DNA of 51,498 nucleotides, from contig JAWXAN010000015.1 of the NCBI GenBank assembly GCA_034439475.1, positions 1 through 51,498 of the forward strand. The letters run 5' to 3'. A program made the translations under genes and the position numbers. The DNA comes from Candidatus Zixiibacteriota bacterium (GTDB lineage: Bacteria; Zixibacteria; MSB-5A5; GN15; FEB-12). Shown in pieces: positions 32,302 to 51,498 of the stretch (position 1 is its first letter; every line of letters starts with the position of its first letter). A model generated the notes under the pieces. That model did not search any database, was not told the DNA's origin, and was given only the letters and a program-made list of their open reading frames with translations.

Positions 32302-33081
32302 AGGTCAGTTAGGTTGTAAAAGAATGTGGTGCAGGGCGCACTCGCCCGCGAACCCGCCGATTATATGGCCGTCAGGTCACACACACTCCTCGCTGTTCGC
32401 TCGAAGTGACCAAGGCCAGACGGAACAGGAAACTGAGATTGCCGCGTCGCGCAGTTTATCCCGCGAAGCGGGACTCCTCGCAACGACTTATTGTAGTGTC
32501 ACCCCAGCGAAAGCTAGGGGGTCCCTCTTCTCTTTGATTTCTTGTCCCGCACTCCCGACATTAGTCGCGACGGTGTGATCTTTTCTTTACCCTCTACTTA
32601 TTGACGTGGGGAGGGTGAGGACTTATTCACGAGCAATACAGAATCGCTGAACCGTTCGCCTGCGGCGAACCGAGGCGGAATCGCTACAGAGGAAGAGAGC
32701 ACGCCGCCGCAGAATCGTTACAAAATAGGATGAAGATGGATTCCAGCTTGCGCTGGAATGACAATGAGAGAACACCACACTTCCGACATTGGTCGCGACG
32801 GTGTGGTCATATCCGTGGTGCGGGACGTCTCTGTCCGACACTATGATCTGCTATTCTTTGTACCCCACCCAACGGGTGGGTTATTATTTTACCCATGTGT
32901 AAGCCTACTTTACCCGTAGCGCCCCGCCCCACACCAAACCTGAAGAACCTGATCATTCTCACACTGGGCAGGAAAAACCCAGCCGTTGGCTGGGCTACAG
33001 GAAGAAAAGATACCCCCTCCCCCTATATTCCTCTCTTTACAAATCACCATAAATCCACTATTATTGGCGGTTATTTAGGAA
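32302..33081. repeat. long intergenic repeat cluster before ileS
   Basis: No gene supported in about 780 bp. Contents: TTGCGAGG-type element at 32435-32487; the widely known 'CCCAGCGAAAGCTaGGGG' and 'ATTCCAGCTTGCGCTGGAAT' hairpins near 32500-32523 and 32740-32759; a 24-bp hairpin at 32818-32841; a GGGTGGG terminator-like hairpin at 32864-32886; and an AGCCCAGCC/GGCTGGGCT-type hairpin at about 32978-32998, shared with 37437-37461. No T-box or other leader is recognisable for ileS. Confidence 0.8.
32864..32886 (+). terminator. terminator-like hairpin downstream of pstS
   Basis: CCCACCC/GGGTGGG stem with AAC loop followed by TTATTATTTT. It lies 560 bp after pstS and might instead be one more repeat, since a sibling hairpin occurs at 37774-37797. 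Confidence 0.45.
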
Positions 33082-36000: not shown

Positions 36001-36363
36001 ATCATTAGAACCGAAAAGGAAGGTTTGGCCGTTGAAGTCGATGGCCCGCTTGCGGTGGCCATCGATACTGTTCTGACAGAAGATTTACTTGATGAGGGAT
36101 TCGCGAGAGAAATGGTTAGTAAGATTCAAAATCTGCGGAAAACATCCGGTTTTGACGTCACTGACCAGATAACAATCAAAGTTGCGGTGTCACCGAGGTT
36201 AAAAACGGCGGTGACAAAGCACGAAGATTTTATCCGTCGTGAAACTTTAGCTGATAAAATGGAGTTTACAGACAACGGCTCTTTTGCCTCCCCGACAAGC
36301 GGCGAGAGCACCGAGTGGAACATCAACGGCGAAAAAGCGGCCATCGCGGTGGCCCGAGTATAA
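33082..36363 (+). CDS. ileS: isoleucyl-tRNA synthetase
   Basis: A 1,093-residue class I synthetase of the long (type 2, eukaryote-like) form. The HIGH-type motif is HHVI (61-64, in GRPGIHHVI), the editing region includes VWTTTPWTLPSNAAL, the active-site segment DQTRGWFYSLL, and the second signature is KMSKH (596-600) rather than KMSKS. The C-terminal half holds the anticodon-binding domain (LIAPVAPFISELLWQELV, LKVRQPLSRLLI). An in-frame ATG at 33091 is a possible alternative start. It heads an ileS-traR/dksA-lspA cluster (15 and 16 bp spacings). Confidence 0.97.
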   Translation: MEQMKFDPLKDNFSLPKAEEKILEFWNKQDVFTAYNEAAKDRPQFVFYEGPPTANGRPGIHHVISRTVKDLVCRYKAMQGFRVDRKAGWDTHGLPVEIEVEKQLKLDNRAKVIEYGIDKFNQKCRESVFKYLEDWRKITRRTGYWLDLDDAYVTLTNDYIESVWWILKNFYDRDLIYKGFKIIPFCPRCGTGLSSHEVAQGYAMIKDPSVYVKVQAADGDFSYLVWTTTPWTLPSNAALCLKADADYVTVEHEGEKLVLAEALVPKLFTEPPKIVARAKGESFLKRKYIPLFDTYKDQSDKAFYVITGDFVTLNDGTGIVHIAPGFGADDYEIGKKYDLPVLQAVEPNGHFKDIAGPYKGMFIKDADPVIIKDLKIAGRLFKKEQYEHNYPFCWRCDSPLIYIARESWYIKTTAFREQLLKNNNAINWVPDEIRTGRMLNWLENNVDWALSRERFWGTPLPIWICTDKACAKQRAVGSLEQLRAEGINVPSDLDLHKPYIDAVELRCDCGGTMKRVPELIDVWFDSGAMPYAQWHYPFENKEVFESKFPADFISEAVDQTRGWFYSLLAISTMLFDKPAFKNVVVIEFILDKEGKKMSKHKGNVVDPFITVDTYGADPVRWYLVSVSNPSLPTRFDLNGLAEVVRKFFDTLRNTYSFFALYANIDDVVDKADKNSQTVEEYLAGKAGESEEFDNWIISKYQSLVRNVTADFDKYEITRPVRAIQYFVIEDMSNWYVRNNRRRFWAAGDDPSKMRAYHTLYSILEGVCRLIAPVAPFISELLWQELVRKTRTLKSPLSVHMTRFTKHNVLRAELGEFKLTFGEATLTYTQKPTETESSSINEELESAMDLVQKIVSLGRAARSRKNLKVRQPLSRLLIGGQRKNVFETLAPFLHIIKDELNIKEIAEADLDNYVTYSAKLNFKTAGPKLGAQVKAVAAHIVQLDNSAVAKFAQSGSLNVDLKSGLLTLTGEDVEIIRTEKEGLAVEVDGPLAVAIDTVLTEDLLDEGFAREMVSKIQNLRKTSGFDVTDQITIKVAVSPRLKTAVTKHEDFIRRETLADKMEFTDNGSFASPTSGESTEWNINGEKAAIAVARV

Positions 36364-36377
36364 ATCGGAGGAGATGT

Positions 36378-36761
36378 ATGAAAGAAGTCGATGCAAAAAA
36401 GTATGAGGTCCTGCTTCTGCAAAAGAAGAAAGAGATGCTCGATGAAATGGGCATTGTCAATCCTGGCGGAAATGCCAACCAGAAAGAAGCGTCAGGAGAT
36501 ATCTCGTCGTATTCCTATCACATGGCCGACCAGGGCACGGACACTATGGATCGCGAAATGGCATTCATGTTTGCCTCTAAATCAGGCCGGCTTGTCTATC
36601 ATATAGACCAGGCCCTGCTTCGCATCAAAGATGGCTCGTTTGGAATCTGCACGGTCTGCAATAAACCGATAAGCACCGCGCGGCTCGAAGCTGTCCCCCA
36701 TGCGAGGCTTTGCATAGGCTGTAAATCCGCTGAAGAGGAAGCAAAAGCTGGCCGCAAATAA
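36378..36761 (+). CDS. TraR/DksA family zinc-finger protein
   Basis: A 127-residue protein. The N-terminal coiled-coil segment (KYEVLLLQKKKEMLDEMG) is followed by a short ASGDISSYSYHMADQGTDT stretch and a four-cysteine zinc finger (CTVC ... CIGC) near residues 91-115, then a basic tail. The typical DksA acidic tip (DxxDxA) is represented only by the DQGTDTMDRE region. Proteins of this group bind RNA polymerase secondary channel or act as uncharacterised regulators; location beside lspA and ileS is seen in other bacteria. ATG at 36378 is supported by GGAGGAG. Activity is inferred. Confidence 0.9.
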   Translation: MKEVDAKKYEVLLLQKKKEMLDEMGIVNPGGNANQKEASGDISSYSYHMADQGTDTMDREMAFMFASKSGRLVYHIDQALLRIKDGSFGICTVCNKPISTARLEAVPHARLCIGCKSAEEEAKAGRK

Positions 36762-36777
36762 GTTTAGCTGGCTGAGA

Positions 36778-37308
36778 ATGCCGGCCCTTATAATTGCTAT
36801 TGTCGTTCTTCTCGACCAGATAACCAAAATCTGGGCGGTGGACGCGCTTACCGGGCAGCCGTCGAAATCGATCATCGGCGATTTTCTGATGTTCACGCTG
36901 GTCTACAATGAAGGGGGCGCGATGGGGACGAACTTCGGGCCATCGGGCTATTATCTCATCACCGCCCTTATCATACTCCCCTTACTGCTCTATTATATCT
37001 ACGCAAACCGCACGTATAAAATGATTGCCCTGCCGCTTTCGTTTATTGCCTCAGGAGCGCTCGGAAATGTTATTGATAGAATAAGAATCGGTAAAGTTGT
37101 CGATTTTATCGATGTCGACTTTTTTGACCTGTCCCTTTTCGGTTACCGGCTGGAGAGATGGTGGACGTTTAACATCGCCGATGCCGCAATCACCTGCGCC
37201 ATAGTTTTTATCCTGCTCACCATGTTTAGAAAGCCGCCAACGGAATCGGTTGGAGCAACTGCCGTTGAGACTGCGCCCAATTTCACCAATCATTCAGAGA
37301 ATTCGTAG
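36778..37308 (+). CDS. lspA: lipoprotein signal peptidase (signal peptidase II)
   Basis: A 176-residue inner-membrane aspartyl protease that removes signal peptides from prolipoproteins. Four hydrophobic segments; motifs VLLDQITKIW, NEGGAMG (usually NxGxAF), GNVIDRIRIGKVVDFID with the first catalytic Asp region, and FNIADAAI with the second. The C-terminal tail (PPTESVGATAVETAPNFTNHS) is polar and variable. The ATG at 36778 is used, but it lacks a clear ribosome-binding sequence; translation may be coupled to the preceding gene. Confidence 0.94.
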   Translation: MPALIIAIVVLLDQITKIWAVDALTGQPSKSIIGDFLMFTLVYNEGGAMGTNFGPSGYYLITALIILPLLLYYIYANRTYKMIALPLSFIASGALGNVIDRIRIGKVVDFIDVDFFDLSLFGYRLERWWTFNIADAAITCAIVFILLTMFRKPPTESVGATAVETAPNFTNHSENS

Positions 37309-37770
37309 TCACTCGTCTTAAGTGATTGCAACAGCTCTTCCTTCTCATTGATTCTCGTACCGCATTGGTCTTCGTGCGGAGCGTCTCAGTCCCGCACCAA
37401 ATCTCAGCAACTTGTTTATTCTCACACTGGGCACGAAAAACCCAGCCGTTGGCTGGGCTACGGGATCTGAACGGACAAAGCAAATATGAGATTGCCGCGT
37501 CATTCGGCTTCGCCTCACTCCTCGCAACGACATGTAGTGATACTTGTTGTGATTTGGGGTACCCCACTCCGCCATCGGCGGACGGTGGGCGGTGTGCTCT
37601 TATTGGTGGTGCAGGCCAGAGACGGCCTGCACGAAGATTTAAAGAGGAATTACAGTATAAATGTCTTCGTGCGGGACGTCCCTGTCGCGCACCGGAGTGA
37701 AGAAAACTGAGATTGCCGCGCCACAGTGGGCAGGCTCGTTGGACAGTGGGTTTCCAAATAGTCTTTTCTT
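37309..37770. repeat. intergenic repeat cluster after lspA
   Basis: Hairpin copies at 37374-37397 (CGTCTCAG centre), 37609-37632 (GTGCAGGCC arm, perfect) and 37669-37692; TTGCGAGG-type element at 37488-37531; GC-rich palindrome at about 37566-37589; and an AAACCCAGCC/GGCTGGGTTT-type hairpin at 37437-37461, part of a roughly 45-bp segment nearly identical to one at about 32955-33001. No gene supported. Confidence 0.8.
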
Positions 37771-37773
37771 TGT

Positions 37774-37797
37774 AACCCACCCAGCGGGTGGGTTTTT
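37774..37797 (+). terminator. rho-independent terminator
   Basis: A nine-base stem AACCCACCC/GGGTGGGTT around AGC, followed by T's. Could end the ileS-traR-lspA transcript about 460 bp after lspA; a near copy at 32864-32886 means it may also be a repeat. Confidence 0.55.
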
Positions 37798-37917
37798 CAT
37801 CATCGATTTCTAATCCGGCTGTTCGCTTGAAGTGAGCAAGACCTAACGGAACATTACAAACGTTCTTGAAGTGGCAGGTCATAGTCAGATGCTCTTTTCG
37901 CTCCTGTGCCAGCCAAT

Positions 37918-37950
37918 AAAAAAGCCAGCAACATTGTGTAAGTTGTTGGC
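37918..37950 (-). terminator. rho-independent terminator of tRNA-Arg
   Basis: On the minus strand GCCAACAAC and GTTGCTGGC form a 9-base stem (one G-T pair) over a 9-base loop and are followed by six T (37918-37923). It lies 26 bp after the tRNA 3' end. Confidence 0.8.
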
Positions 37951-37976
37951 CATCAGCAGGGAATCGGCAGATTTTA

Positions 37977-38050
<74 letters not shown>

Positions 38051-38072
38051 GTAAGGAATCTTTCGAAGCTTG

Positions 38073-38102
38073 AAACTACGAACATACACCGCCCTTTGTC
38101 AA
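38073..38102 (-). promoter_or_regulatory. sigma-70-type promoter for tRNA-Arg
   Basis: TTGACA (38097-38102, minus strand) and TAGTTT (38073-38078) with 18-bp spacing, about 23 bp before the tRNA 5' end. The -35 is perfect; the -10 matches consensus in four of six bases. Confidence 0.5.
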
Positions 38103-38360
38103 CCCCTTTGAGTTGGGTGTCTGAGATGGAAAGGCCTTAAATGTCAGTCCGCCACGGGGGACGGGATTGACAATGTGTTGGAATGACAAGATAGGGCCTT
38201 GACTGCGCTTCCTTGTTCTTCGTGCGAGGCGTCTCTGCCACGCACCAGGTGACCGTCAGGTCATCCGCCGTGGGCGGACTTCGGAAGTCTCAGCACCTCT
38301 GCCCTAAGAAGGCCGGCAAGACCTAACGGAACATCAAATAAATAAGCGTCTTAATTGCGG
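38103..38360. repeat. intergenic repeats between nnr and tRNA-Arg
   Basis: GC-rich palindrome remnants near 38147-38163 and 38262-38282, a 24-bp hairpin copy at 38222-38245 (GTGCGAGGC arm, GTCTCT loop), 'caggtgaccgtcaggtcatc' and 'aagacctaacggaaca' fragments (the latter also near 37840). No gene seen. Confidence 0.7.
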
Positions 38361-39902
38361 CTACTCAAGATACTCAAAGGCATACGGGAGACTCTCCATT
38401 ATATCGCCGGCAATCATGGCGCGCTGAGTAAAAGTTTCCGCTACAAAATCACCAGCCAATCCATGAACATAGACTCCGCAGACTGCTGCGGCATCCGGCG
38501 TCATCCCTTGCGCAAGAAACGAGCCGATTATTCCTGAGAGGACATCGCCCGTCCCCCCGGTTGCCATGCCGTTATTTCCAGTCGGATTGAGATAAACCTC
38601 GCCTGCCGGAGTTGCGACCAAAGTCGGACTTCCCTTTAACACCAATACAATCTTATTCTCTGTGGCAACTTTTCGAACAAGCGCTATTCGCTGGTGAATG
38701 TCATCCGGCGTTTTTAATCCCGTCAGCCGCTCAAATTCTCCACCGTGCGGAGTCAGGATCGGCGGGATAGAACAATCTCTCAACATTGCCAGTTGACCAG
38801 CAAGAGCGTTGAGTCCATCGGCGTCGATAAGACATGGTTTGTCCATTTTTGCCACAAGCCGCCGTACCAGTTCAAACGTCTCATGGTGCCTTCCAAGCCC
38901 GGGGCCGATTACAACCGCGTCATGCTTTTTTATCAGGGCGCGAATCTCTCCAAGGGCGCGAAGCGCCAAGGCTCCTTTTTTGCCGACATCGGGCAAGGGA
39001 TGGGTCATCACTTCGGTCAGTTTTATCGCCAGTATCGGCTGAACAGATGCCGGTGTGCCCACGACAACTGTGCCGCAGCCCGATCTCAACGCGCTTAAAC
39101 CGGCGAGCGCCGCCGCGCCGGTGAGTCCGGTCGATCCGGCAATCACACAAAGTTTTCCAAATTCCCCTTTGTGGCCATCGAATTTCCGCTCCGGAAGTAG
39201 ATCTGCGACCGCATCATCGGTGAGAAGCAGACAATCTTTTGCGACACTCTCGACAATCTCATCAGGAATCCCGATAGGAATGACTTCGATTTCTCCGGCC
39301 AGCTCCCGCCCCGGTGTGAGGAAAAGTCCATACTTTGGCAGACCGAGCGCATACGTATAATCGGCTTCTACCACCGCCCCAACTGCTTCGCCACTGTCGG
39401 GATTTACACCGGAGGGGATATCGACAGAGACGACAATGCAATCATGCAGGTTTATATGCTCGATCATTTCGGCGGCAAGTCCTTCAGGCGCCCCTTCGGA
39501 GCCGCTTCCCAAAATTGCATCGACAACAAGGTCACATTCATCCGGGTGCGGCAGATCGTCAACGGATGAAATCTCAACCGTGTGAATACCGTCAGCAATT
39601 GCATGGTCGAGATTCAGGCGCGTCTCCTGAGATATTTTCTCGGTGGGTCCGATATAAAAGACTGTCACACTCGCACCTTCCTCAGCCAAATGACGGGCAA
39701 GAACAAAGCCATCGCCGCCATTATTACCGCGCCCGCAATAAATGTGAATCACGCTTCCTTCGGAGGCGGGAAGCAGGGCCGAGATGATTAATTCAGCAAT
39801 ACCCGATCCGGCGTTCTCCATCAGACGCGCGCTGGAGAGTTCGGTCTGCTCGGAGGTGAGACGGTCTATCCGCCGCATTTGGGCGGCTGTGACCAGTTTC
39901 AT
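38361..39902 (-). CDS. nnr: bifunctional NAD(P)H-hydrate epimerase / ADP-dependent dehydratase
   Basis: A 513-residue fused enzyme that repairs damaged NAD(P)HX. The N-terminal YjeF_N epimerase domain (residues ~1-215) has IYCGRGNNGGDGFVLARHL and VDAILGSGSEG. The C-terminal ribokinase-like dehydratase domain (~225-500) has KGEFGKLCVIAGSTGLTGAAALA, GPGLGRH, LTPHGGEFERLTG, GNNGMATGGTGDVLSG with catalytic Asp, all intact. It is 18 bp after lon and is probably the last gene of the ychF-lon-nnr group. Confidence 0.96.
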   Translation of the reverse strand: MKLVTAAQMRRIDRLTSEQTELSSARLMENAGSGIAELIISALLPASEGSVIHIYCGRGNNGGDGFVLARHLAEEGASVTVFYIGPTEKISQETRLNLDHAIADGIHTVEISSVDDLPHPDECDLVVDAILGSGSEGAPEGLAAEMIEHINLHDCIVVSVDIPSGVNPDSGEAVGAVVEADYTYALGLPKYGLFLTPGRELAGEIEVIPIGIPDEIVESVAKDCLLLTDDAVADLLPERKFDGHKGEFGKLCVIAGSTGLTGAAALAGLSALRSGCGTVVVGTPASVQPILAIKLTEVMTHPLPDVGKKGALALRALGEIRALIKKHDAVVIGPGLGRHHETFELVRRLVAKMDKPCLIDADGLNALAGQLAMLRDCSIPPILTPHGGEFERLTGLKTPDDIHQRIALVRKVATENKIVLVLKGSPTLVATPAGEVYLNPTGNNGMATGGTGDVLSGIIGSFLAQGMTPDAAAVCGVYVHGLAGDFVAETFTQRAMIAGDIMESLPYAFEYLE

Positions 39903-39920
39903 ATTTTTCTGATTTTCAGT

Positions 39921-42317
39921 TTAGGCCGAGGCTTTGGATTTGCTCTTTTTCGGCTGTCTTTTATTTTTAGTGACAGGAACATCAAGAGCAAACTTAATCG
40001 CTGGGAGGACATCAGAAAAGAACTTTATTTTGATCTTCTTCTTAATTTCTGCAGGCAATTCTACTGTGTCTTTGCGATTTTCGGCTGGCAGAATGATGGT
40101 CGTCACACCGGCGCGAAGCGCGGCCAGGAGCTTTTCCTTAAGTCCGCCAATGGGAAGCAGTTCACCGCGAAGTGTAACCTCACCGGTCATGGCAAGAGCT
40201 GGTTTGACCGGACGCTGAGTGAAGAGGGATACCAATGCCACAGCCATTGTGATTCCCGCCGATGGCCCGTCTTTGGGTGTCGCGCCTGAGGGGACATGAA
40301 TATGGATTTCCTGATTTTCAAATTTTTGTGATGCAATCCCTAAATCCGCAGCATTGGAGCGAATGAATGAGAGCGCGGCCTGAGCCGATTCTTTCATCAC
40401 ATTTCCCAACTGACCCGTGAGCATCATCCCGTTTTTCCCGGGCATTAATGTCGCCTCGACAAAAAGCAGTTCCCCGCCGGCGGCCGTATAGGCAAGACCG
40501 GGGACGACACCGGGACGCCCATAGCGGGTAAGAACTTCGTGCGAGAATCGTCTTGGGCCAAGAAGCCGCGCGACAGCCGGGGCGTTGATCAAAGTTTTCT
40601 TTGTAGTTCCCGATGCCACTTTGCGGGCTACTTTGCGAACGACCGAGGCGATTTCCCGCTCGAGATTACGCACACCGGCTTCGCGGGTGTAATCTTCAAT
40701 TAAAGTCCGGAGGCCGTCGTCGTTCACCTCAAGATTCTTCTCGGACAGACCGTGATTCTCCAACTGTTTGGGAAGCAAATGCCGCTTGGCAATGGCCAAT
40801 TTTTCTATTTCGGTATAACCCGGGATCTGAATCAACTCCATCCGGTCACGGAGAACATGGGATATCGGCTCGGCCCAGTTAGCGGTTGTGATGAACATTA
40901 CTTTCGATAGGTCGAAGGGGACATCCAGATAATGGTCAGTGAAAGAGTCGTTCTGTTCCGGATCGAGCACTTCAAGAAGCGCAGATGCCGGATCGCCGCG
41001 GAAGTCGGAACCGAGTTTGTCTATTTCGTCAAGCATGATAATCGGATTGTTCGAGCCGCACCGTTTTAAGCTTTGGATGATTCGTCCCGGCAGGGAACCG
41101 ATATAGGTTCGACGATGTCCGCGAATTTCAGCCTCGTCCCTCATGCCACCCAAAGAAATACGCGCAAACTCGCGTCCCATCGCGCGGGCGATGGATTTCC
41201 CCAGCGATGTCTTTCCAACTCCAGGAGGGCCCACAAAGCAGAGGATAGGCCCTTTGATATTTGCCTTCAACTTACGGACGGCAAGGTATTCCAGTATCCG
41301 TTCTTTTACTTTTTCCAAATCAAAATGATCTTCGTCGAGTATTCGCTTGGCTTTTTTTAAATCCAGAATATCAGTCGTGCTGATACTCCACGGGAGCGAG
41401 ACCAGCCAGTCCAAATAAGTACGGGAGACAGTGTATTCAGCCGACGACGGAGCCATGTGAGAGAGGCGGTCGAATTCCTTCATGGCCGTCTTGGCGACGG
41501 CTTCGGGCATTTTCGCATCGGCAATTTTTTGTTCAAGGTCTTCGAGGTCGCGCGGGCCATCTGTCTCGCCAAGTTCACGCCGAATGGCTTTGATCTGTTC
41601 GCGCAAAATATAATCGCGCTGTGATTTTCCAAGTTCGCTTGCGGCCTGGGCCTGAATTTTTTGCGACAGCTCAAGCACTTCGATCTCTTTATTTATCGCC
41701 TGATACAGCTTTTGCATTCGTTTGACGACATCGAGTTCCTCGAGCAACTGTTGTTTAAAGGCGAGCGGTATATTCAGGCTCGATGCCACAAAATCGGTCA
41801 GCTTGGAAGGGGTGTCTTGATTGATGGCCGAGACATGGAACTCCTCGTTTAGATACGGCGCAAGTTCCACAAGTGTCTTTATACGGTCGATGAAATTTCT
41901 CTGTAACGCCGTTTGACGAAGCGAGTCGTCTTCGTTTTCATCCAACTCAAAAACTTCAGCCGTTAAATGGGGCGAGTCGGGCAGAAAGCGGCGAACTTTG
42001 ATGCGAGTTAATCCCTGGACAAGAAAACGGACGGTGCCATCGGGAAACCGGAGCATTTTGAGGATATTGCCGGCAGTGCCGACATGATAGAGCCCATCGG
42101 GACCGGGATTTTCCTCTTTGGGGTCTTTTTGGACAAAGAGACCTATTCGTGATCCTTGCATGAGGGCGTCATCGACAAGACGAGTCTGCTCCACCTGTTG
42201 GATCATGAGCGGAACCACCAGATAGGGATAAACGATTATTCCTTTAAGGGGAAGAATCGGCAATACCTGGGTCTCAGTCTCTGATTTGACTATATTTCTT
42301 TCCAGCACTTTGGTCAT
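39921..42317 (-). CDS. lon: ATP-dependent protease Lon
   Basis: A 798-residue Lon protease. LAN substrate-binding domain at the N-terminus (LPILPLKGIIVYPYLVVPLMI), helical middle (GKSQRDYILREQIKAIRRELGE), AAA+ module with Walker A GPPGVGKTSLG and Walker B IIMLDEIDKLG, and C-terminal protease domain with catalytic Ser in KDGPSAG and Lys in GGLKEKLLAALRAG. The tail is Lys-rich (KNKRQPKKSKSK). Cytoplasmic quality control; no HrcA/CIRCE or sigma-32 site was noticed before it. Confidence 0.97.
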   Translation of the reverse strand: MTKVLERNIVKSETETQVLPILPLKGIIVYPYLVVPLMIQQVEQTRLVDDALMQGSRIGLFVQKDPKEENPGPDGLYHVGTAGNILKMLRFPDGTVRFLVQGLTRIKVRRFLPDSPHLTAEVFELDENEDDSLRQTALQRNFIDRIKTLVELAPYLNEEFHVSAINQDTPSKLTDFVASSLNIPLAFKQQLLEELDVVKRMQKLYQAINKEIEVLELSQKIQAQAASELGKSQRDYILREQIKAIRRELGETDGPRDLEDLEQKIADAKMPEAVAKTAMKEFDRLSHMAPSSAEYTVSRTYLDWLVSLPWSISTTDILDLKKAKRILDEDHFDLEKVKERILEYLAVRKLKANIKGPILCFVGPPGVGKTSLGKSIARAMGREFARISLGGMRDEAEIRGHRRTYIGSLPGRIIQSLKRCGSNNPIIMLDEIDKLGSDFRGDPASALLEVLDPEQNDSFTDHYLDVPFDLSKVMFITTANWAEPISHVLRDRMELIQIPGYTEIEKLAIAKRHLLPKQLENHGLSEKNLEVNDDGLRTLIEDYTREAGVRNLEREIASVVRKVARKVASGTTKKTLINAPAVARLLGPRRFSHEVLTRYGRPGVVPGLAYTAAGGELLFVEATLMPGKNGMMLTGQLGNVMKESAQAALSFIRSNAADLGIASQKFENQEIHIHVPSGATPKDGPSAGITMAVALVSLFTQRPVKPALAMTGEVTLRGELLPIGGLKEKLLAALRAGVTTIILPAENRKDTVELPAEIKKKIKIKFFSDVLPAIKFALDVPVTKNKRQPKKSKSKASA

Positions 42318-42418
42318 CTCTATGTTAAAAACCTCTATTTAACTTATCGGCCTTGATGAGCAAAAAATGAACATCTAAAGATAAAAACGTGTGGACAAAG
42401 TAGAAGTTCCCCTTGGCC

Positions 42419-43471
42419 TTAGACGTTGAAGCGGAACATCACGACATCGCCGTCATCGACGATATACTCTTTCCCCTCAAGGCGCATCTTGCCTGCGGCT
42501 TTGATTGCGGCAGGAGTTTTCAGGGAAACATAATCGGCATACTTAATTATCTCGGCGCGAATAAAACCACGCTCAATATCGCTGTGGATAACTCCGGCGG
42601 ATTTTTGCGCGTTTGTGCCTCGTTTGATTGTCCAGGCCCGCACTTCGGGCTCGCCCGCGGTAAGGAATGAAATAAGTCCGAGCAGGGAATATGATTTCTG
42701 GATAACCTGTGAAACGGCAGGTTCGGAAATTTTCAACTCCTGCATGAACATCTCACGCTCGTCGTCGCCGAGGGCGACAAGTTCCATCTCTACTTTTCCG
42801 CACACAACCGCAAGTTCACGGCGTCCCGGTGAAACAATACTTTTGTGTTTTTCGTATATCGCGCTCGAGTTCGCCAACTGGTCTTCGGAAATATTTAGCA
42901 CAATCAGGAGCGGTTTCAGAGAGAGAAACATATACCCGCGAATGAGCTTTAGTTCTTCATCGGTCAAGTCCAAATCTATGAGCGGTTTTTCCTGTTCAAG
43001 AAATGCCAGAAGTTTCTGGAGCAGTTCGATTTCGCGTGTTTCGGTTTTGTCGCCGGTCATGCGGCTTTTCTTCGATTTCTTCACGACCGCACTTTCAATC
43101 ATCGCCTGATCGAGCAGAATCAATTCATCGATAAGGTTTTTTATTTCGACCGTCGGATTGGCGTCGGGGGCGAAAGCGTTCACCACCATTATATAGGTAT
43201 CCATATGGCGAAAATCGGAGCTTATCTCAAGTCCGGCACCCTCTTTTCCTTTGCCGGAAAGGCCAGGAGCATCGAGAAATTCAATTTCGGCGGGTGTGAT
43301 TTTCTTGGGGTTGACCAGCTCGGCAAGGGTCTGCAGCCGAGAATCGGGTACTTTGATGACGGCACGGTGCACAGCCTGCGAAAAATCACCGACTGCTTCC
43401 TGCATACCTGCGGCGGCATTGAAGACGGTTGTTTTGCCCGATTGTGGTTTGCCTAAAATCCCAAGTTTCAT
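42419..43471 (-). CDS. ychF: YchF/OLA1 family GTPase/ATPase
   Basis: A 350-residue protein. G1 GKPQSGKTTVFNA, G3 DAPGLSGKGKEG, and an NISEDQL motif replacing NKxD (the family's relaxed specificity, which allows ATP hydrolysis). A central coiled coil (VVKKSKKSRMTGDKTETREIELLQKLLAFLEQE) and a C-terminal TGS domain (IHSDIERGFIRAEIIKYADYVSL) complete the family architecture. Binds ribosomes; implicated in stress response. Slightly short of the usual 363 residues. Confidence 0.95.
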   Translation of the reverse strand: MKLGILGKPQSGKTTVFNAAAGMQEAVGDFSQAVHRAVIKVPDSRLQTLAELVNPKKITPAEIEFLDAPGLSGKGKEGAGLEISSDFRHMDTYIMVVNAFAPDANPTVEIKNLIDELILLDQAMIESAVVKKSKKSRMTGDKTETREIELLQKLLAFLEQEKPLIDLDLTDEELKLIRGYMFLSLKPLLIVLNISEDQLANSSAIYEKHKSIVSPGRRELAVVCGKVEMELVALGDDEREMFMQELKISEPAVSQVIQKSYSLLGLISFLTAGEPEVRAWTIKRGTNAQKSAGVIHSDIERGFIRAEIIKYADYVSLKTPAAIKAAGKMRLEGKEYIVDDGDVVMFRFNV

Positions 43472-43736
43472 AGCCGGTAATGGTACGGCTATCGGCTCTC
43501 TGAGGCAAGAGTTAGTTGGGGGAGAACATCTATTTGGGCAAGAGCATCTATGTTGTGGTGTCGGGCGACCCCGACGGGGCAGTTATCCTGCCCGACACGT
43601 CAAGACAGTCAGTCCGCCGCGGCGGAATCGCTACAAGATAAGAGAATATGAGATTGCCACACCAGCCACAGAGTACGCCATAGGGTGCAGGCCAGAGACG
43701 GCCTGCACGAGAAGCCAAACAAGAGCTATTGATTGA
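43472..43736. repeat. intergenic repeats between nfo and ychF
   Basis: An expanded hairpin at about 43558-43599 whose GTGTCGGGC and GCCCGACAC arms are separated by a longer loop containing ACCCCGACGGGGC; GC-rich palindrome at about 43609-43632; 'gagattgccacaccagcc'; and a perfect 24-bp hairpin at 43685-43708 with the same GTGCAGGCC arm as 37609-37632. Confidence 0.75.
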
Positions 43737-44585
43737 TCACACCGCCAGCCCTCGCAGTACGCGCAGATTTTCAATATCCTCGGCAAGCGTGTCTTCGTCT
43801 TTGGGAGTCTCGATAATTTTGGGAATGGCGGCAAGCCTTTTATCTGTTACGATATTACGGAATGCCTCCAGACCGATGAAGCCTTTTCCGATATGCTCAT
43901 GCCGGTCTTTTTTGGCTCCGAATTCTTTTTTGCTGTCGTTCATGTGAATTATTTTAAGTCGTTTCAATCCGATGACAGAATCGAAAGTGGCCATTGTTTT
44001 TTTGTAATCCTTCGGATCGCTAATAGGATATCCGGCGGAAAAAACATGACAGGTGTCCATGCACACCCCAAGCTGGGCATGTTTATGCGCATGGTCGATG
44101 ATATAGGCGATCTGCTCAAAGGTATAGCCGAGGTTTGAGCCCTGGCCGGCGGTCGTCTCAAGCAGGAGACAGACATTGTTGTTGGTAAGTTCATCGAAAA
44201 GGCGAATGAGATTAGCGACTATTGCATTGAGACCAGTCTCTTCGCCTGAACCGACATGCGAGCCGGGATGCATGACAAGACAGGGGATTTTCAATAGTTC
44301 ACAGCGCTCCATCTCCTCTTTGAGGGCAAGGTAGGATTTTTTATTCAGTTCCGGATTGGGCGAAGCGATATTGATCAGATAGCTTGTGTGCGAGGTGGCA
44401 ACTGTGACTTTTGTATCCAGGATGAGTTTGAAATACTGGTCCAACTCTTTTGTTTCGAGTTTTTTGGCGCGCCATTGGCTGTTTGATTTGTTGAATATCT
44501 GGATTGTTCCGCAGGTTGCCTTTTGGCCCCGGGTGATGGCGTTGAAAACTCCGCCGGCAATTGATTCATGGGCTCCGAATAACAT
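43737..44585 (-). CDS. nfo: endonuclease IV (AP endonuclease)
   Basis: A 282-residue TIM-barrel repair enzyme that nicks DNA 5' of abasic sites. Zinc ligands lie in the recognisable blocks CLVMHPGSHVGSGEE, LLLETTAGQGSNLGYTFEQ, GVCMDTCHVFSAGY, IHMNDSKKEFGAKKDRHEHIGKG and IIETPKDED. The start MLFGAHESIAGGV is conserved. Complete and probably transcribed alone. Confidence 0.97.
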   Translation of the reverse strand: MLFGAHESIAGGVFNAITRGQKATCGTIQIFNKSNSQWRAKKLETKELDQYFKLILDTKVTVATSHTSYLINIASPNPELNKKSYLALKEEMERCELLKIPCLVMHPGSHVGSGEETGLNAIVANLIRLFDELTNNNVCLLLETTAGQGSNLGYTFEQIAYIIDHAHKHAQLGVCMDTCHVFSAGYPISDPKDYKKTMATFDSVIGLKRLKIIHMNDSKKEFGAKKDRHEHIGKGFIGLEAFRNIVTDKRLAAIPKIIETPKDEDTLAEDIENLRVLRGLAV

Positions 44586-44748
44586 AGAGTATGACTCCGC
44601 TGTTCAGTTTGTTTACTGTAGAAATAATAATGACTGGAGGTTATAAAATCAAATTGTTCTTCTCTTGTAGCGATGACGTAACCGGGATAAGCCGGTGCAC
44701 GAGGCTTCCAGTCGCCTAACTGCACGGCTAAGCGCAGCCCGCGGCGCC

Positions 44749-45156
44749 CTATATCTTCCGCGCTATCAGCCAGGCGTTGGAGGCTTTTTCAAAACCCACA
44801 TGCCCATAATATCCCGCTGCGGTTGGGGCCTCAAGAAGCAGGAATGTCACCCTGCCGCCGCCGGAAGCCTCGTGGGTGAGACGCATTAACTCCTGTCCGA
44901 TCTTTTGTCCCTGGTAGGCTTTGTCGACAGCCAGATCAGAGAGATAACAACAGAAGCTGAAATCAGTCACAGCGCGAGCGATACCGACAAGTTTATCTCC
45001 GTCGCGGGCGCAGAGCATGAGCGAAGCAAACTGAACCATTTCAGCAATACGCTCGGGTTCATCGACCGGGCGTCGAGCGGCAAGTCCTGAGCGGTTGAGG
45101 AGATCGATGAATTCTTTGGCGGTCAAATCCGGTTCGGTAGTGTAGGCAATGGGCAT
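44749..45156 (-). CDS. GNAT family N-acetyltransferase
   Basis: A 135-residue protein with the GNAT core: LVGIARAVTDFSFCCYLSDLAVDKAYQGQKIGQELM carries motif A (QGQKIG, the acetyl-CoA pyrophosphate loop), followed by LLEAPTAAGYYGHVGFEKASNAWLI. Substrate unknown. It begins 3 bp after the aldehyde dehydrogenase stop, so the two are co-transcribed. The short 160-bp spacer to nfo has only repeat fragments. Confidence 0.93.
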   Translation of the reverse strand: MPIAYTTEPDLTAKEFIDLLNRSGLAARRPVDEPERIAEMVQFASLMLCARDGDKLVGIARAVTDFSFCCYLSDLAVDKAYQGQKIGQELMRLTHEASGGGRVTFLLLEAPTAAGYYGHVGFEKASNAWLIARKI

Positions 45157-45159
45157 TTA

Positions 45160-46590
45160 TTACTTCACATCCATTTTAAGGGCCAGCAGTTTTATTTCAG
45201 TCATCGATTCAATAGCATAGCGGATTCCTTCGCGGCCTGTGCCGGAATCTTTCATCCCCCCGTACGGCATCTGGTCGGCGCGGTAAGTGGGGATGTCATT
45301 TACTATAACACCGCCGCAATCGATATATTTGAAAGAATACATAATATCATTCATGCGGTTTGTGAAAACGCCCGCCTGTAAACCAAACGGAGAATCATTT
45401 ATTGCCGCGACGGCATCAGTAAACTTTTCATACTTTTCGACAATTACAATTGGCGCGAAGGCTTCTGTGCGGTTTACATCAAGCTTACGATCCACGTCGG
45501 TCAAAATTGTCGGTTCAATCATCTGTCCTGTTACAGTTCCACCAGTAAGAACTTTTGCTCCCTTTGAGACGGCATTAGAAATAAACATTGAGGCCTTCTC
45601 CACAGCATCGGGCGTTATCATACAGCCAAGATCTGTCATAGAATCAATGGGATTTCCAATTTTGAGCGCTTTGGTTTTTTTGGTAAACAGCGCGATAGTC
45701 TGTTCATAGACGTTGGCATGAATGAAGATTCGTTGGACGGAAATACATGACTGCCCGGCGACACCAAATGCTCCGGTGACCAGCCGAGTTGTCGCCCACT
45801 CAAGATCGGCATCATCGGCGACAATCACACCGGCGTTCCCCCCGAGTTCCAATACTACTTTCTTACGCGGCGCTTGTTCTTTGATCCACCAGCCGACTTG
45901 GCCCGAGCCGGTGAAACTAATAAGTTTCACCCGTTCGTCTTTGATAAGCGGGCTCGTCTCGGATGGCTGTCCCGGCAGAATGGAAATCGCGCCTTTCGGA
46001 TAATCCGTTTTGTCTATCGCTTCGGCCAACAGCATCGCCGAGAGCGGAGTTGCTGAGGCCGGTTTGAGGACTATCGTATTACCCGATGCCATAGCCGGGC
46101 CGATTTTATGCGCCACCAGATTCAGTGGAAAATTGAAGGGTGTGATTCCGGCAATGACGCCGAGTGGAAACCGCCTGACCAAGCCAATGCGATTTTCACT
46201 TCCCGGATTCCAATCAAGGTTGATTATTTCGCCGCCGATTCGTTTCGATTCTTCAGCAGAGATTCTAAAAACGCCGATAGCTCGGTTTACTTCAAGTTTC
46301 GCTTCTTTGAGAGATTTGCCTGATTCAAGCGACAAGACTTTTGCAAACTCTTCATGACTATTTTTAATCTGCTCCGCAATCGAGAGACAGCACTTTTCGC
46401 GCACGTAGGACGGCAGTTCGCGGGTTTGGGCAAACGCGGTATGGGCGGCTTCAATTGCAAGAGTATAATCGTCAGACGATGCCGATGAAACAACCCCGAC
46501 CACTGACTTATCGTAGGGGGATTTTACTGTTATCTGTAGGGCTTTCTCAGCCCATTTCCCTGCGAGGTACAAAGCGAATTTTAGACTCAT
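45160..46590 (-). CDS. NAD(P)-dependent aldehyde dehydrogenase
   Basis: A 476-residue ALDH-superfamily enzyme. Catalytic Cys282 in GQSCISVQR, general-base Glu248 in VLELGG, Asn153 in ITPFNFPLN, and the cofactor loop FTGSGQVGWWI. The first ~30 residues are in the usual arrangement (KFALYLAGKWAEKALQITVKSPYDKSVVGVV). It resembles lactaldehyde/succinate-semialdehyde and non-phosphorylating GAPDH types; the substrate cannot be assigned from motifs alone. Divergent from the pilin operon across a 269-bp gap. Confidence 0.94.
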   Translation of the reverse strand: MSLKFALYLAGKWAEKALQITVKSPYDKSVVGVVSSASSDDYTLAIEAAHTAFAQTRELPSYVREKCCLSIAEQIKNSHEEFAKVLSLESGKSLKEAKLEVNRAIGVFRISAEESKRIGGEIINLDWNPGSENRIGLVRRFPLGVIAGITPFNFPLNLVAHKIGPAMASGNTIVLKPASATPLSAMLLAEAIDKTDYPKGAISILPGQPSETSPLIKDERVKLISFTGSGQVGWWIKEQAPRKKVVLELGGNAGVIVADDADLEWATTRLVTGAFGVAGQSCISVQRIFIHANVYEQTIALFTKKTKALKIGNPIDSMTDLGCMITPDAVEKASMFISNAVSKGAKVLTGGTVTGQMIEPTILTDVDRKLDVNRTEAFAPIVIVEKYEKFTDAVAAINDSPFGLQAGVFTNRMNDIMYSFKYIDCGGVIVNDIPTYRADQMPYGGMKDSGTGREGIRYAIESMTEIKLLALKMDVK

Positions 46591-46859
46591 TGAACAAGTT
46601 TTGCATTCAACAGTGGTAAAGTCAAGCTGGCAGTTTGTAGGCTTTTCAGATATGGGGGAAAACCAATAGATTGTGGCACTTCGGAGCGAAAAAATATGGG
46701 ATTTTACCTATTGATTCGCTGCTGGACACACCAGATTCGTATTTTTCTATCCCATTGATGCATTAGTTCTTATGTCAGTTAAAGAGCAGTTTTCGTGTGC
46801 GCGTTATGTCTACGGCACACTTGTTACATACTACAAGCTGAAATATAAGGAACAATACC

Positions 46860-47252
46860 ATGAAAATAGGCAGAATTATGAAGAAATTAAGAAACACAAG
46901 GATCAATCAAAGAGGCCAGCGCGGTATTTCGATTCTTGAGGTTATGATCGCCATGGTCATTCTGGGCGTGTCCCTTCTTCTCCTTTTAAATATGGCGATG
47001 GTCGCCCTCGATGGCAACGATTGGTCAAATCGAACTACTATTGCCACGCAACTTATGCAGGAGAAGCTCGAAGAACTCCGGGCTACAGGCGAAACTTTGA
47101 ATAGCTCGGACACCGCTCAAGGTATCTCGCGAAGCTGGACAGTCACTGATATGGGAAGCCATTTGATTAAAATCGATGTCGCTGTCACATGGGAGGACGT
47201 GCGCTCAAAGACCAAAACGAGCAGTATGAGCGCATTTGTCCGAACTGAATAA
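46860..47252 (+). CDS. PilV-like type IV minor pilin
   Basis: A 130-residue prepilin. The leader ends in QRG and is cut by PilD between G22 and I23; mature sequence starts ISILEVMIAMVILG with the obligatory Glu at +5. A hydrophobic spine runs to about residue 50; the short globular part (TATGETLNSSDTAQGISRSWTVTDM) fits PilV-type minor pilins. It starts the pilV-pilW-pilX gene string. Confidence 0.9.
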   Translation: MKIGRIMKKLRNTRINQRGQRGISILEVMIAMVILGVSLLLLLNMAMVALDGNDWSNRTTIATQLMQEKLEELRATGETLNSSDTAQGISRSWTVTDMGSHLIKIDVAVTWEDVRSKTKTSSMSAFVRTE

Positions 47253-47255
47253 ATA

Positions 47256-48119
47256 ATGAAAGACTCTAACAGAGATAGAAAGCAAAGGACTCAAAAGGCT
47301 ATGAGAACTCTACTACGAAAGCAAACGGGAGCGAGGGGATTCTCCATCATGGAGGTTCTCATCTCGCTCGTCTTGATGGGTATGGTGACAACGGCTGTGC
47401 TGAAGACCTATTTGACTCAGCATGAGCACTATTTAATCCAGGATGACATCTCACAAATTCAGCAGTCCGCCCGGGCTTCGATTGATGAACTGACGCGACA
47501 GATCCGCATGGCCGGCTACGGTCTCCCCGACGGTTTGGAAGCTATAGACGCATACAATACAAATCCTGATACGATAACTGTAAACTACCAGACTTCGGAC
47601 TGCGATACCTATCTGGCGGCAGCCATGCCTATGCCATCGGCGGAGTTGAAGTGCGCGACAGACATATCCTGCTTTAGTGATAATCAGTGGGTATATATTT
47701 TTGAACCCGATTCGGGAGGCGGCGAATGGTTTGTCATTACTCACGTTCAGACTGCATCTAGAATGTTGCAGCATAATACAATGAGGCTGTCAAGGTCATA
47801 TGGCAAAGACGCCGTCATTCTCTTAATGTATCAGGTCAAGTTCTATATAGACAACACGACTGACCCGAACAAACCCTGTATGATGATAAAGCTTTTCGGG
47901 CAGAACCCTCAGGTATACGCCGAGAACATTTCTGATCTGCAGTTGACGTATCGTCTTGAAGACGGGACAATTGTCGATGTGCCGACGGTCTCAGAAGACA
48001 TTCGCGAGGTGAAAATTTCTCTGACTGGTCGTTCGGCCAATCCTGATCCCGACAAGACAAGCGATCCCTATCGCTTGAGAACGTACACGTCATCAGTTAA
48101 TGTGAGAAATATATCTTAG
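47256..48119 (+). CDS. PilW-like type IV minor pilin
   Basis: A 287-residue prepilin. Cleavage G28/F29 (ARGFSIMEVLISLVLMGMV, with Glu33 at +5 of the mature protein), then a spine and a C-terminal domain with DDISQIQQSARASIDELTRQIRMAGYGLPDG, characteristic of PilW. Four bp after PilV. The ATG at 47256 is used, but the leader of 28 residues is long; ATG at 47301 (MRTLLRKQTGARG) may be real. Confidence 0.88.
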   Translation: MKDSNRDRKQRTQKAMRTLLRKQTGARGFSIMEVLISLVLMGMVTTAVLKTYLTQHEHYLIQDDISQIQQSARASIDELTRQIRMAGYGLPDGLEAIDAYNTNPDTITVNYQTSDCDTYLAAAMPMPSAELKCATDISCFSDNQWVYIFEPDSGGGEWFVITHVQTASRMLQHNTMRLSRSYGKDAVILLMYQVKFYIDNTTDPNKPCMMIKLFGQNPQVYAENISDLQLTYRLEDGTIVDVPTVSEDIREVKISLTGRSANPDPDKTSDPYRLRTYTSSVNVRNIS

Positions 48120-48137
48120 TAAAGGAGATAGAATATT

Positions 48138-49796
48138 ATGTTGTGTAAGCCGCTGAAAAATGAGACGGGCGTTGCGACGCTCATTGCGTTGATAATGATC
48201 GGTATGCTGACCCTTATTGGACTGGCCGCCATGTCGACATCTGACAACGATGTTACCATTGCTGGTAACCAGCTCAAGGAGATGCGTGCCTTTTACGCCG
48301 CTGAAGCAGGACTTGAGTACGCTTCGGCGCAAATACAGAATGTTTATGACAGCACCGGCAAAGCGCCTACGCTTATGCCGTCGGGAAGCGAAACCATAAA
48401 TGGCTGCTCCATCGTGTATGAGACCAAGGATAACGGCCCGGCAGTAACTAAAGCTCTGTCCATAGGGCCGTATGCTGGTCTTAATTCCACCGTTAAATCC
48501 TTCAGTGTTCAATCTGAGGCAACGGGCCCACTAGGTGAAGGAATTGTCTCGATGACGATGACCTTCGAAAACCAACTCATACCGATTTTTCAATACGCCG
48601 TTTTTTATGACGGCGATCTCGAAATGGCGCCCGGGCCGGATATGACTCTAGTTGGTCGAATTCACACAAACGGTAACCTCTACATTCAGTCGAGCAATAA
48701 CCTAAATATAGACAGCTATGTAACTGCCGCAGGTAAATTTCTCCGCGGACGCAAAGGCCCCGGCACAGTAGGAGCAGGCAAAGTCTACGTTAAGAACGCC
48801 AGCGGAATATATAAATCTCAGCAAGACAACAAAGGGAATTGGCTTGATGCGACCGTCTCCACCTGGAAATCAGATGCCCTCAGCCGCTGGGGCGGCAAGG
48901 TTCAAGACGGCTCACATGGTCAAGCCAAAATGAATCTTCCTGTGGCTGATGAGACCGGCAATCCTCATAAAATAATCGAGCGGGCGAACGGCACAGCGAA
49001 CCCGGATTCGTACGAAAACAAAGCGACACTTAAGATCGTCGACAACATCGCCTTCAAACAAGTCGCCGGCTCCTGGGTCGATGTCACCGCCTTGATGGTT
49101 GCGACAGGCGTCATTACCTATAGCGCCGACAAGTTCACCGATGGACGTGAAGGTAAAAAAGTTGATGTCACAGATATCGATATTCAGAAACTCTACGCCA
49201 ATGGATTTGCCCCGTCCAATGGAGTCATCTATTTCTCTGATGCTTCGGCAAGCGCATCAGAGTATCCTGCGCTTCGACTGAAAAACGGCGCCGAGCTTGG
49301 CGGCGGATTGACTATCGCAAGCGAGAATCCGGTCTACACGGTTGGAAATTTCAACACAGTTAACAAGAAACCGGCCTCGCTCATGGGGGATGCCCTTACC
49401 TTTCTCTCTAATTCTTGGGATGATTCCAAGAGCGCCCTTGCAAAGACCGACCGCATCGCCAGCAGTAGCACCGTCAATGCCTCATATTTTACCGGCGGAC
49501 AGACCACGACCTCCACCGAGTACGGCGGCGGCTTTGAAAATCTGCCCCGGTTCCTTGAAGACTGGACAGGCAAAACATTTACCTGGAAAGGCTCTGCTGT
49601 CAATCTCTGGGAAGCTCAACAGGCTGTTGGAAAGTGGAGCAATGCATTTTTCTCTGAGCCTATACGCAACTGGTCGTACGATACCGGCCTGGATGACGCT
49701 GCCAACCATCCTCCCGAAGCGCCAGTTGTGAAAATCTTTCGCTGTACCGGATGGCAGCGGGAGCATGTCGGATCAGACTCCCATATGTATCTATAA
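48138..49796 (+). CDS. PilX-like pilus assembly protein (large)
   Basis: A 552-residue protein with a PilX N-terminal domain (ETGVATLIALIMIGMLTLIGLAAMSTSDNDVTIAGNQ), a membrane segment near residues 14-32, and the typical AFYAAEAGLEYA stretch. The large remainder is rich in Ser, Asn and Asp, with an NLNIDSYVTAAGKFLRGRK region, and resembles the big extracellular part of PilX/DUF-type pilus tip-associated proteins. AAAGGAGATAG precedes the ATG. A broken second copy follows 15 bp later. Confidence 0.82.
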   Translation: MLCKPLKNETGVATLIALIMIGMLTLIGLAAMSTSDNDVTIAGNQLKEMRAFYAAEAGLEYASAQIQNVYDSTGKAPTLMPSGSETINGCSIVYETKDNGPAVTKALSIGPYAGLNSTVKSFSVQSEATGPLGEGIVSMTMTFENQLIPIFQYAVFYDGDLEMAPGPDMTLVGRIHTNGNLYIQSSNNLNIDSYVTAAGKFLRGRKGPGTVGAGKVYVKNASGIYKSQQDNKGNWLDATVSTWKSDALSRWGGKVQDGSHGQAKMNLPVADETGNPHKIIERANGTANPDSYENKATLKIVDNIAFKQVAGSWVDVTALMVATGVITYSADKFTDGREGKKVDVTDIDIQKLYANGFAPSNGVIYFSDASASASEYPALRLKNGAELGGGLTIASENPVYTVGNFNTVNKKPASLMGDALTFLSNSWDDSKSALAKTDRIASSSTVNASYFTGGQTTTSTEYGGGFENLPRFLEDWTGKTFTWKGSAVNLWEAQQAVGKWSNAFFSEPIRNWSYDTGLDDAANHPPEAPVVKIFRCTGWQREHVGSDSHMYL

Positions 49797-49811
49797 CAGG
49801 AAGGTGATATA

Positions 49812-50532
49812 GTGCGTACGAAAATAGTAAGGCGTGAATCAGGCTTTGCGACTCTGATCGCGCTTATCATGGTCGGTCTGCTTACACTAATCGGGTTGGC
49901 GACAATGTCGACTTCGGATACAGAGGTCTCAATCGCTGGCAACCAAATTGCATGAGATGCATGCCTTTTATGCGGCAGAAGCGGGGCTTGAGCAGGCCGC
50001 GGCATCGCTTCAGTGTACCTACGACAGCACCGGCGCTCCGCCGCTGGTCATGCCTATAGGAACAAATGCCGTAAATAACTGCGCGGTGGTATACTCGACC
50101 ACAGATGACGGATTTCCTACAGTCAAGGATCTGACAGTCGGCTCTATGGCCGGGCTGCATGCGCTGATGAAATCTTTCAGTTTGAACTCGACAGCGACCA
50201 GCTTGCAGGATCATGGCAAGGTTGAAATGTCTCAAACGTTCGAAACTGCGCTTATACCGATTTTCCAGTTTGCGGTATTTTATGGCAATGATTTGGAGAT
50301 CGCCCCCGGTCCGGATATGACGCTCTTTGGACGGGTGCACATAAACGGCAATCTGTATTTGCAGTCAAATAATAATCTTCGCATGGACAGCTATGTCACA
50401 GCGTTGGGTAATATCATCCATGGCCGCAAAGGAGCCGGAGCGGCGGGTGCAAGCGACGTGCTGGCTAAGAATGCCACTGGAACCTATGTCTCAATGAAAG
50501 ACGGATCTGATCTTGCCCTACCATTCCATTGC
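49812..50532 (+). pseudogene. second PilX-like gene copy, frameshifted and truncated
   Basis: Starts with GTG 49812 after AGGAAGGTGAT. The first 47 codons parallel the intact gene (ESGFATLIALIMVGLLTLIGLATMSTSDTEVSIAGNQ) but reach TGA at 49953-49955. In the +1 frame the homology continues (EMHAFYAAEAGLEQAAASLQCTYDSTG ... NNLRMDSYVTALGNIIHGRKGAGA) to about 50513, near the position equivalent to residue 220 of the intact copy, and then stops in repeat DNA. One extra base around 49947-49953 accounts for the shift. The copy lacks more than half of the protein and is most likely non-functional. Confidence 0.85.
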
Positions 50533-50880
50533 AGTCCGCCGCGGCGGATGCCTGACTGTCTTTTTGTGTCGGGCAGAGACGCCCGACACCACTTACTTAT
50601 TCTTCGTCCAGTCTGCCCCGCACCAAGGATGAAGACGAATATGAGATGATGAAGAGGGCAACCACGGGGGGTTGCCCCTACGGAATATCGACGCAATATC
50701 GAATGTGCGGCATTAGTGTCACAGTTCTATATTTGTAGGGGCAGGTCCCTGTGCCTGCCCTTATTTACGTGACTGGTGTACATCCCGCCACGCCTGCCCG
50801 CTGTGGTGGGGCGGACCTGAAAGCCCCGTGCACCAGCCCTTGTACCACCGTCCCCATTTCCCTCGTTGCTTTCACCCCCC
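50533..50880. repeat. repeat cluster joined to the broken pilX copy
   Basis: GC-rich palindrome (about 50531-50551) is directly at the end of the PilX homology; then 24-bp hairpin with perfect 9-bp GTGTCGGGC arms at 50566-50589, a 'ggggcaggtccctgtgcctgccc' hairpin near 50737-50759, and 'ctggtgtacatcccgccacgcc' and 'gtgcaccagccc' modules. No gene seen before the Mrp start at 50952. Confidence 0.8.
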
Positions 50881-50951
50881 AATACTCCTTTATTAACCCT
50901 CGGAACTTGCGACTATAAAAGTCGTTACACCCTGTGAAAGAGATTTTTGTT

Positions 50952-51498
50952 ATGCTCAATACCGAAACCGTCATGCACATCCTCTCCGGAATCGATGACC
51001 CGGAACTCAAAAAGCCCCTCACAGAACTTGGAATGATCAAATTTGTCGATATTGAAGGCGGCGATGTCACTGTCGGCGTCACCCTTACCGTTCCAGGCTG
51101 TCCCCTCAAAGAGAAAATCACAAACGATGTCACAAATGCCGTCATGCTCATTCCCGGCGTCGAGCGGGTCGCCGTCAAATTCGATGTCATGAACGACCAA
51201 CAGCGGACCGAGCTTCGGACAAAACTCGGTATGGGAGTCAAACCGACGACCGGAAACCAACCCGCTACGGGTCGGGCGCCAGCTTCTGTCATCAATTTCG
51301 CCGATAGATTTATCGCCGTCTCGTCCGGCAAAGGGGGTGTCGGCAAATCGACTGTGACTGTAAACCTGGCCTGCGCCCTCGCGCGGTTAGGCAAAAAAGT
51401 CGGTCTGCTCGATGCCGATGTCTACGGTTTTTCCATTCCGCGAATGCTCGGAGTCCAAGGCCAGCCTATAGTTATCGATGATATGATTGTCCCGCTCA
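50952..51498 (+). CDS. Mrp/ApbC family Fe-S cluster carrier ATPase (partial, 3' end outside)
   Basis: 182 codons are visible. N-terminal MIP18/DUF59 domain ([46 protein letters not shown]), a Pro/Ala-rich linker and the start of the P-loop ATPase, with deviant Walker [11 protein letters not shown] at residues 125-134 and [15 protein letters not shown]. It binds and transfers Fe-S clusters in the cytoplasm. The CxxC cluster motif would lie beyond the window end. ATG at 50952 follows GAAAGAG. Confidence 0.95.

Follow-up and report, generated by a model that had tools for sequence, protein, structure and literature searches.

A truncated tandem pilX copy best read as a breakpoint of origin-block rearrangement in a Candidatus Zixiibacteriota genome

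In bacterial gene maps the surroundings of dnaA-dnaN-recF are, as a rule, comparatively stable. Pseudogenes at breakpoints of bacterial chromosome rearrangements are genes cut at a new adjacency, with repeats at the joint and the former neighbour at another joint, and the locus analysed here resembles them in all of these respects. It differs in that the moved block is the dnaA-dnaN-recF origin cluster, in that two clusters are interleaved with order and orientation kept, and in that the lost half of the cut gene was not found at the reciprocal joint. The cut gene, a second copy of pilX (pilX2), is a clear example of an already known kind of genome scar; the interleaved order with a gene cut at one joint makes it a resolved case of origin-block rearrangement, apparently in an uncultured phylum.

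The repeats at the joints also have described counterparts. GTAG-tagged REPs are defined as stem-loops with an unpaired GTAG at one end, a stem of 5–13 bp and a loop of 2–20 nt (Table 1, PMC3733652); the passages of that paper on which we draw also allow pairing of the two REP arms with each other, and the hosts that they name are Proteobacteria, Cyanobacteria, Chloroflexi and the PVC group, not Zixibacteria. REPINs are short elements made of two inverted REPs (PMC3116915), and TRIP1 repeats and rearrangements in E. coli are treated in PMC10888264. Judged by titles and the beginnings of abstracts, none of the papers listed on Zixibacteria and repeats is evidently about the repeats described below. 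By their titles, the papers found on tandem duplication–random loss and bacterial gene order all concern animal mitochondria, and the one found on Zixibacteria and oriC deals in general terms with genomes from metagenomes.

The window, by which we mean the whole stretch of 51,498 nucleotides that was analysed, is contig C15 of a 2.66-Mb genome in 82 contigs, given as 98.7% complete. Of 13 loci matched by protein in named genomes, 6 bear the label Candidatus Zixiibacteriota, more than any other label, and the window probably belongs there. The window contains the following features.

33082–37308, plus strand: block O1 (ileS, a dksA/traR-type gene and lspA), directly before nnr-lon
37309–38360: joint J1 (lspA/nnr), with repeats at 37369–37797 and 38179–38298
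37977–38050, minus strand: tRNA-Arg inside joint J1
38361–50511: block P1 (nnr, lon, ychF, nfo, a GNAT gene, an aldehyde dehydrogenase gene, pilV, pilW, pilX1 and truncated pilX2)
48138–49796, plus strand: pilX1, an intact PilX-like minor pilin of 552 aa, 42–59% identical to full-length relatives
49812–50511, plus strand: pilX2 pseudogene, with a one-base frameshift near 49945, ending at the equivalent of pilX1 residue 234 of 552
50512–50951: joint J2 (pilX2/mrp), mostly repeats
50512–50531: spacer of about 20 bp from the last pilX-homologous base to the first clear repeat
50532–50607: repeat A/B, a GC palindrome and a GTGTCGGGC...GCCCGACAC hairpin, 93% over 76 bp to C37:6044–6119
50612–50647: repeat C, 36 bp, 94% to C20:89–124
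50648–50766: repeat D, two hairpins (50655–50681 and 50735–50761), 85% over 119 bp to C39:10583–10700
50763–50846: repeat E, quasi-palindromic, 80–89% to eight other places over 64–84 bp
50952–51498, plus strand: 5' part of mrp (NUBPL/ApbC-type P-loop ATPase), the rest being on contig C39

The pilus genes were named partly by context: pilV has an N_methyl match in Pfam, the position of pilX1 downstream of pilV supports the PilX name, and pilW, for which the Pfam search gave no match, is named by position. The two contigs are linked inside mrp by an exact and unique overlap of 99 bp (window 51400–51498 = C39:34658–34756, the reversed C39 end), and the only other match to the window's final 100 bp is one of 28 bp (E = 1.5). 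Beyond the overlap, C39 continues with mrp-dnaA-dnaN-recF-abc, a gap of ~225 bp that contains repeats (joint J3, abc/sppA), sppA, a 370-aa gene and spoU; by family matches, this sppA encodes an S49 peptidase and spoU a SpoU methylase. DnaA-box-like sites lie between mrp and dnaA and would fit, although they do not prove, an origin there; GC skew around the origin block is too weak to show a switch. Among known RNAs, the tRNA-Arg in J1 was the only one found at the joints. The assembly break inside mrp coincides with no dispersed repeat and may stem from strain variation or from graph trimming.

The initial annotation described pilX2 as a tandem second copy with a one-base frameshift, and this description is borne out. 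In a tblastn search of pilX1 against the DNA from 49750 on, residues 4–46 matched in one frame (70%) and residues 45–230 in another (58%), with E(2) = 1e-73, and no other match had E below 0.7, the 3' end of pilX1 itself aside; where the frame changes, near 49945, pilX2 is one base longer than pilX1. The pilX1 product matches PilX_N (PF14341) with E = 3e-4 and 21.1 bits, below the Pfam cutoff of 25.5 bits, and the pilX2 piece has no PF14341 match. Over 185 residues, pilX2 is 57% identical to pilX1 and up to 65% identical to relatives, and therefore belongs to the same family by homology. Each of the 35 relative sequences, compared over up to 185 residues, is more similar to pilX2 than to pilX1; the set includes three short partial sequences, and its rows are not independent. 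The pilX2 branch is also shorter (0.34 against 0.88 for pilX1) in a tree of low resolution that leaves 14 of 31 inner branches open. The frameshift aside, pilX2 is free of stops over 47 and 189 codons, and this lack of further stops fits a recent break.

Aligned with relatives, the homology of pilX2 reaches '...YVSMKDGSD', which ends at 50511. Neither tblastn nor the alignment with relatives detects any homology that resumes after this position, and the truncation stands. The aligner placed LALP, just past 50511, on an LNLP motif ~40 residues further on; we rejected this as resumed homology, given that 382 of 3000 stretches drawn at random from the window fit the pilX tail equally well. For all seven residues of the 20 bp past the break the figure is 3207 of 5000 random stretches, and a restart of homology there is not above chance. 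A search with PilX1 (E ≤ 1e-5) found no second pilX tail elsewhere in the genome, and none was found at the reciprocal joint beside sppA, including the ~225-bp gap on C39. Gene conversion of the C-terminal half of pilX1 by the lost half of pilX2 was considered and set aside: conservation of the C-terminal half is not clearly above that expected from the N-terminal half (mean z of 0.49 over 32 relative sequences, with single relatives from −0.64 to 0.74).

To what extent this arrangement departs from an earlier one was judged from other genera, since the same genus is not represented among the 40 relatives returned, whose best PilX match has 59% identity. A convergent sppA-like gene of ~805 aa comes directly after the last pilX in 15 of 22 loci of relatives (of which L077 and L078 come from one genome), and after it come a ~350-aa gene with no Pfam match and spoU. 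Two other genes precede the sppA-like gene in L087 and L088; in L081 the second and third genes are kept and the first is masked by an antisense reading frame; and four loci (L068, L069, L070 and L078) have another order after the last pilX. Downstream of pilX, the stretches from the 15 relatives with the sppA arrangement contain no J1–J3 sequences, save for one 16-bp match (E = 0.035). Relatives with intact tandem pilX genes, with which the initial annotation proposed a comparison, were found in L064, L068, L069, L074 and L075, which have two or three full copies; copies of pilX in tandem are a common arrangement. Upstream, nnr adjoins lon in all eight relatives' loci examined, and three of the eight have, at varying distance outside nnr, a gene that we take to be secA-like. 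A pilX match at E ≤ 1e-100 was found in 26 relatives. Eight of them (G004, G007, G008, G009, G013, G016, G027 and G036) have lon and pilX no more than 20 kb from each other on one contig; the other 18, some of them well assembled (G003, G017 and G019), have the two genes on different contigs. This cluster is not fixed among relatives.

In relatives the origin neighbourhood is arranged as ileS-dksA-lspA-(mrp)-dnaA-dnaN-recF-abc. One or both sides were fetched for 14 genomes, of which G003 has a contig that ends too soon. In eight of the 14 the gene after lspA is mrp or dnaA, in one case beyond a single small gene; this order was not seen in the fetched stretches of G013 (L092/L114), G002 (L096), G006 (L097), G019 (L118) and G017 (L121). 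After abc comes mutM in four of seven relatives. In the source genome mutM lies at the end of C67, and it is the probable former neighbour of abc. We searched 24 relatives for mrp, and in all nine with strong matches to both mrp and pilX the two genes lie either on separate contigs or, in G027, some 0.55 Mb from each other, taking its single contig to be circular; where an assembly is fragmented (for example, G004, G006, G010 and G033), a split over contigs does not alone exclude linkage.

Seen against these orders, nnr-lon-...-pilX2 now lies between lspA and mrp, and mrp-dnaA-dnaN-recF-abc now lies between pilX2 and sppA, which places the truncated gene about 7 kb from its former neighbour, with the dnaA block between. 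This order and its three joints are read directly from the contigs, and a single interleaving of one pair of clusters is consistent with all three. As judged from the sequence, the order O1 (ileS-dksA-lspA), P1 (nnr...pilX2), O2 (mrp...abc), P2 (sppA...spoU) appears to be that of two ancestral clusters, interleaved with internal order and relative orientation kept. The old neighbour sppA is thus found elsewhere and the new neighbour mrp is foreign to the pilX locus in relatives, as expected at a breakpoint; the missing part of pilX is absent from the reciprocal joint, and its loss has to be assumed. We consider it probable that pilX2 is a pseudogene and that it was cut when a rearrangement of the chromosome interleaved the O and P clusters as O1-P1-O2-P2, with the P1/O2 joint inside the last pilX. 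The truncation is best read as a breakpoint of origin-block rearrangement in repeat-rich DNA, and not as the footprint of a repeat insertion.

On this reading of a rearrangement, the O cluster would originally have been ileS-dksA-lspA-mrp-dnaA-dnaN-recF-abc, the origin neighbourhood, and the P cluster nnr-lon-...-pilV-pilW-pilX-sppA-...-spoU. The P1/O2 joint would fall inside the last pilX copy, with loss of its 3' half; the joint itself presumably removed the tail, and recombination in or near REP-like repeats may have made or fixed the joints. A likely route would be tandem duplication across the neighbouring clusters and then complementary loss, or an exchange of blocks with the same result. 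That route assumes that the O and P clusters were already neighbours, and no relative examined shows such an adjacency. The frameshift in pilX2 would be later decay, and the interleaving could have come before or after the truncation. A simple inversion would not produce the interleaved O1-P1-O2-P2 order. A bolder reading, which we hold to be rather unlikely, is that REP-like clusters mediated the exchange: nnr-pilX2 and dnaA-recF would have been duplicated in tandem, the new joint falling inside pilX2, and one copy of each would then have been lost in complementary fashion. If so, the gene context of the origin would have been relocated with the orientation of every block kept, and truncated pilX2 would be the scar of the duplication joint.

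The repeat cluster at J2 spans about 50527–50846 (~320 bp) and consists of four adjoining repeats. The GC-rich palindrome (14 bp, 50535–50548) and the 24-nt hairpin (50566–50589) reported by the initial annotation are real, and the hairpin also appears in the predicted fold of 50500–50940, for which the z-score of −3.1 refers to the whole 441 nt. That annotation had homology ending exactly at the repeats; it does end at this cluster, but about 20 bp short of the repeat edge rather than to the base. At E ≤ 1e-3, at least 52 further matches to the J2 repeats occur in the same genome, far beyond chance; the count is of matches listed rather than of independent elements, and it covers the 40 candidate regions scored out of 176. 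A search of 41 genomes gave long matches in the source genome only and matches of 26–32 bp in eight others.

Repeat D is the element that most closely resembles a described one. Each of its hairpins has an unpaired GTAG facing inwards, with stems of 7–8 bp and loops of 6–8 nt (both read by eye) and a 53-bp spacer; the arms are in opposite orientation with the tags inside (tail-tail), the stems differ (a heterodimer), and in the predicted fold of 50500–50940 the two arms pair with each other. Both hairpins agree with the definition of a GTAG-tagged REP, as do the many dispersed copies with the repetitive nature that it implies, and by that definition repeat D fits a GTAG-tagged REP dimer like those described (PMC3733652), a putative assignment made from the sequence. 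It likewise resembles the REPINs of PMC3116915 in its architecture; the difference is that its other copies (six copies aligned, with further partial matches) are 71–85% identical to it.

Repeats were found at J1, J2 and J3 and after mutM. Repeat B is common to J2 and J3 (74% over 46 columns) and repeat E to J2 and the contig end at mutM (87%); J1 has no significant repeat in common with J2 or J3. Such repeats occupy 12 of 41 gaps in the window overall and 11 of the 12 gaps over 200 bp, in a baseline that was built from a hand-made gene list and from own-genome loci mostly fetched as J2-repeat matches and that leans to J2-type repeats. As nearly all long gaps carry them anyway, repeats at the joints are weak evidence of cause, and repeats at a joint should not be taken as evidence of repeat insertion. 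The initial proposal that recombination at repeats truncated the gene holds in that the cut coincides with a breakpoint of rearrangement and every joint examined has repeat clusters, but the repeats are no more than a possible cause; nor, given that baseline, does the event date repeat movement, as had been suggested. Further mosaic clusters of related repeat families, mostly intergenic, occur in the window at 387–721, 7022–7186, 10466–10799, 20012–20291, 29494–29974 and 32366–33021. The same families lie within about 110 bp of an end in at least eight contigs (C60, C61, C64, C51, C59, C67, C20 and C45), and for this reason they probably limit the assembly.

The proposal that the arrival of repeats truncated pilX2 is not upheld in its simple form: no homology detectably resumes, sppA is displaced beyond the dnaA block, and a simple insertion with target duplication was rejected because there is also no empty site. 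A more elaborate version is that REP-like elements inserted into pilX2, that the remainder was deleted between repeats, and that the dnaA-block rearrangement was a separate event in the same repeat-filled gap. The repeats nearly abut the truncation, the gap is tiled by four adjacent elements as repeated insertion would predict, and REPs inside genes are described in the part of PMC3733652 used here; this account nevertheless needs an extra event, and no pilX tail was found on either side; we regard it as unlikely. A false joining of the pilX locus to the mrp-dnaA locus through repeats during assembly might be suspected from the repeats near contig ends, but the same two clusters are interleaved at each of three separate joins, which are internal to two contigs that share the unique mrp overlap, and the best other copies of J2 elements reach only 85% over 119 bp and 93% over 76 bp, with a longest fully identical row of 31 bp (40 of 176 candidates scored), making such a chimera highly improbable. 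That pilX2 is a functional short pilin-like gene, expressed by programmed frameshifting or from an internal start, is scarcely credible: its two stop-free parts and good conservation would suit this, but the first frame stops after 47 codons and the internal TTG frame lacks a hydrophobic N-terminus and continues into repeat sequence.

Some observations on relatives concern the same two regions. The spot beside the origin may be broken repeatedly, as the lspA-mrp/dnaA order is absent from the fetched stretches in five other genera, and in L117 (G012), L119 (G007) and L124 (G005) mrp was not found between lspA and dnaA, the order being otherwise kept. In G013 (L076:6210–7841), an additional full pilX precedes pilV; it sits between the pil cluster and the aldehyde dehydrogenase gene, the usual copies being on the other side.
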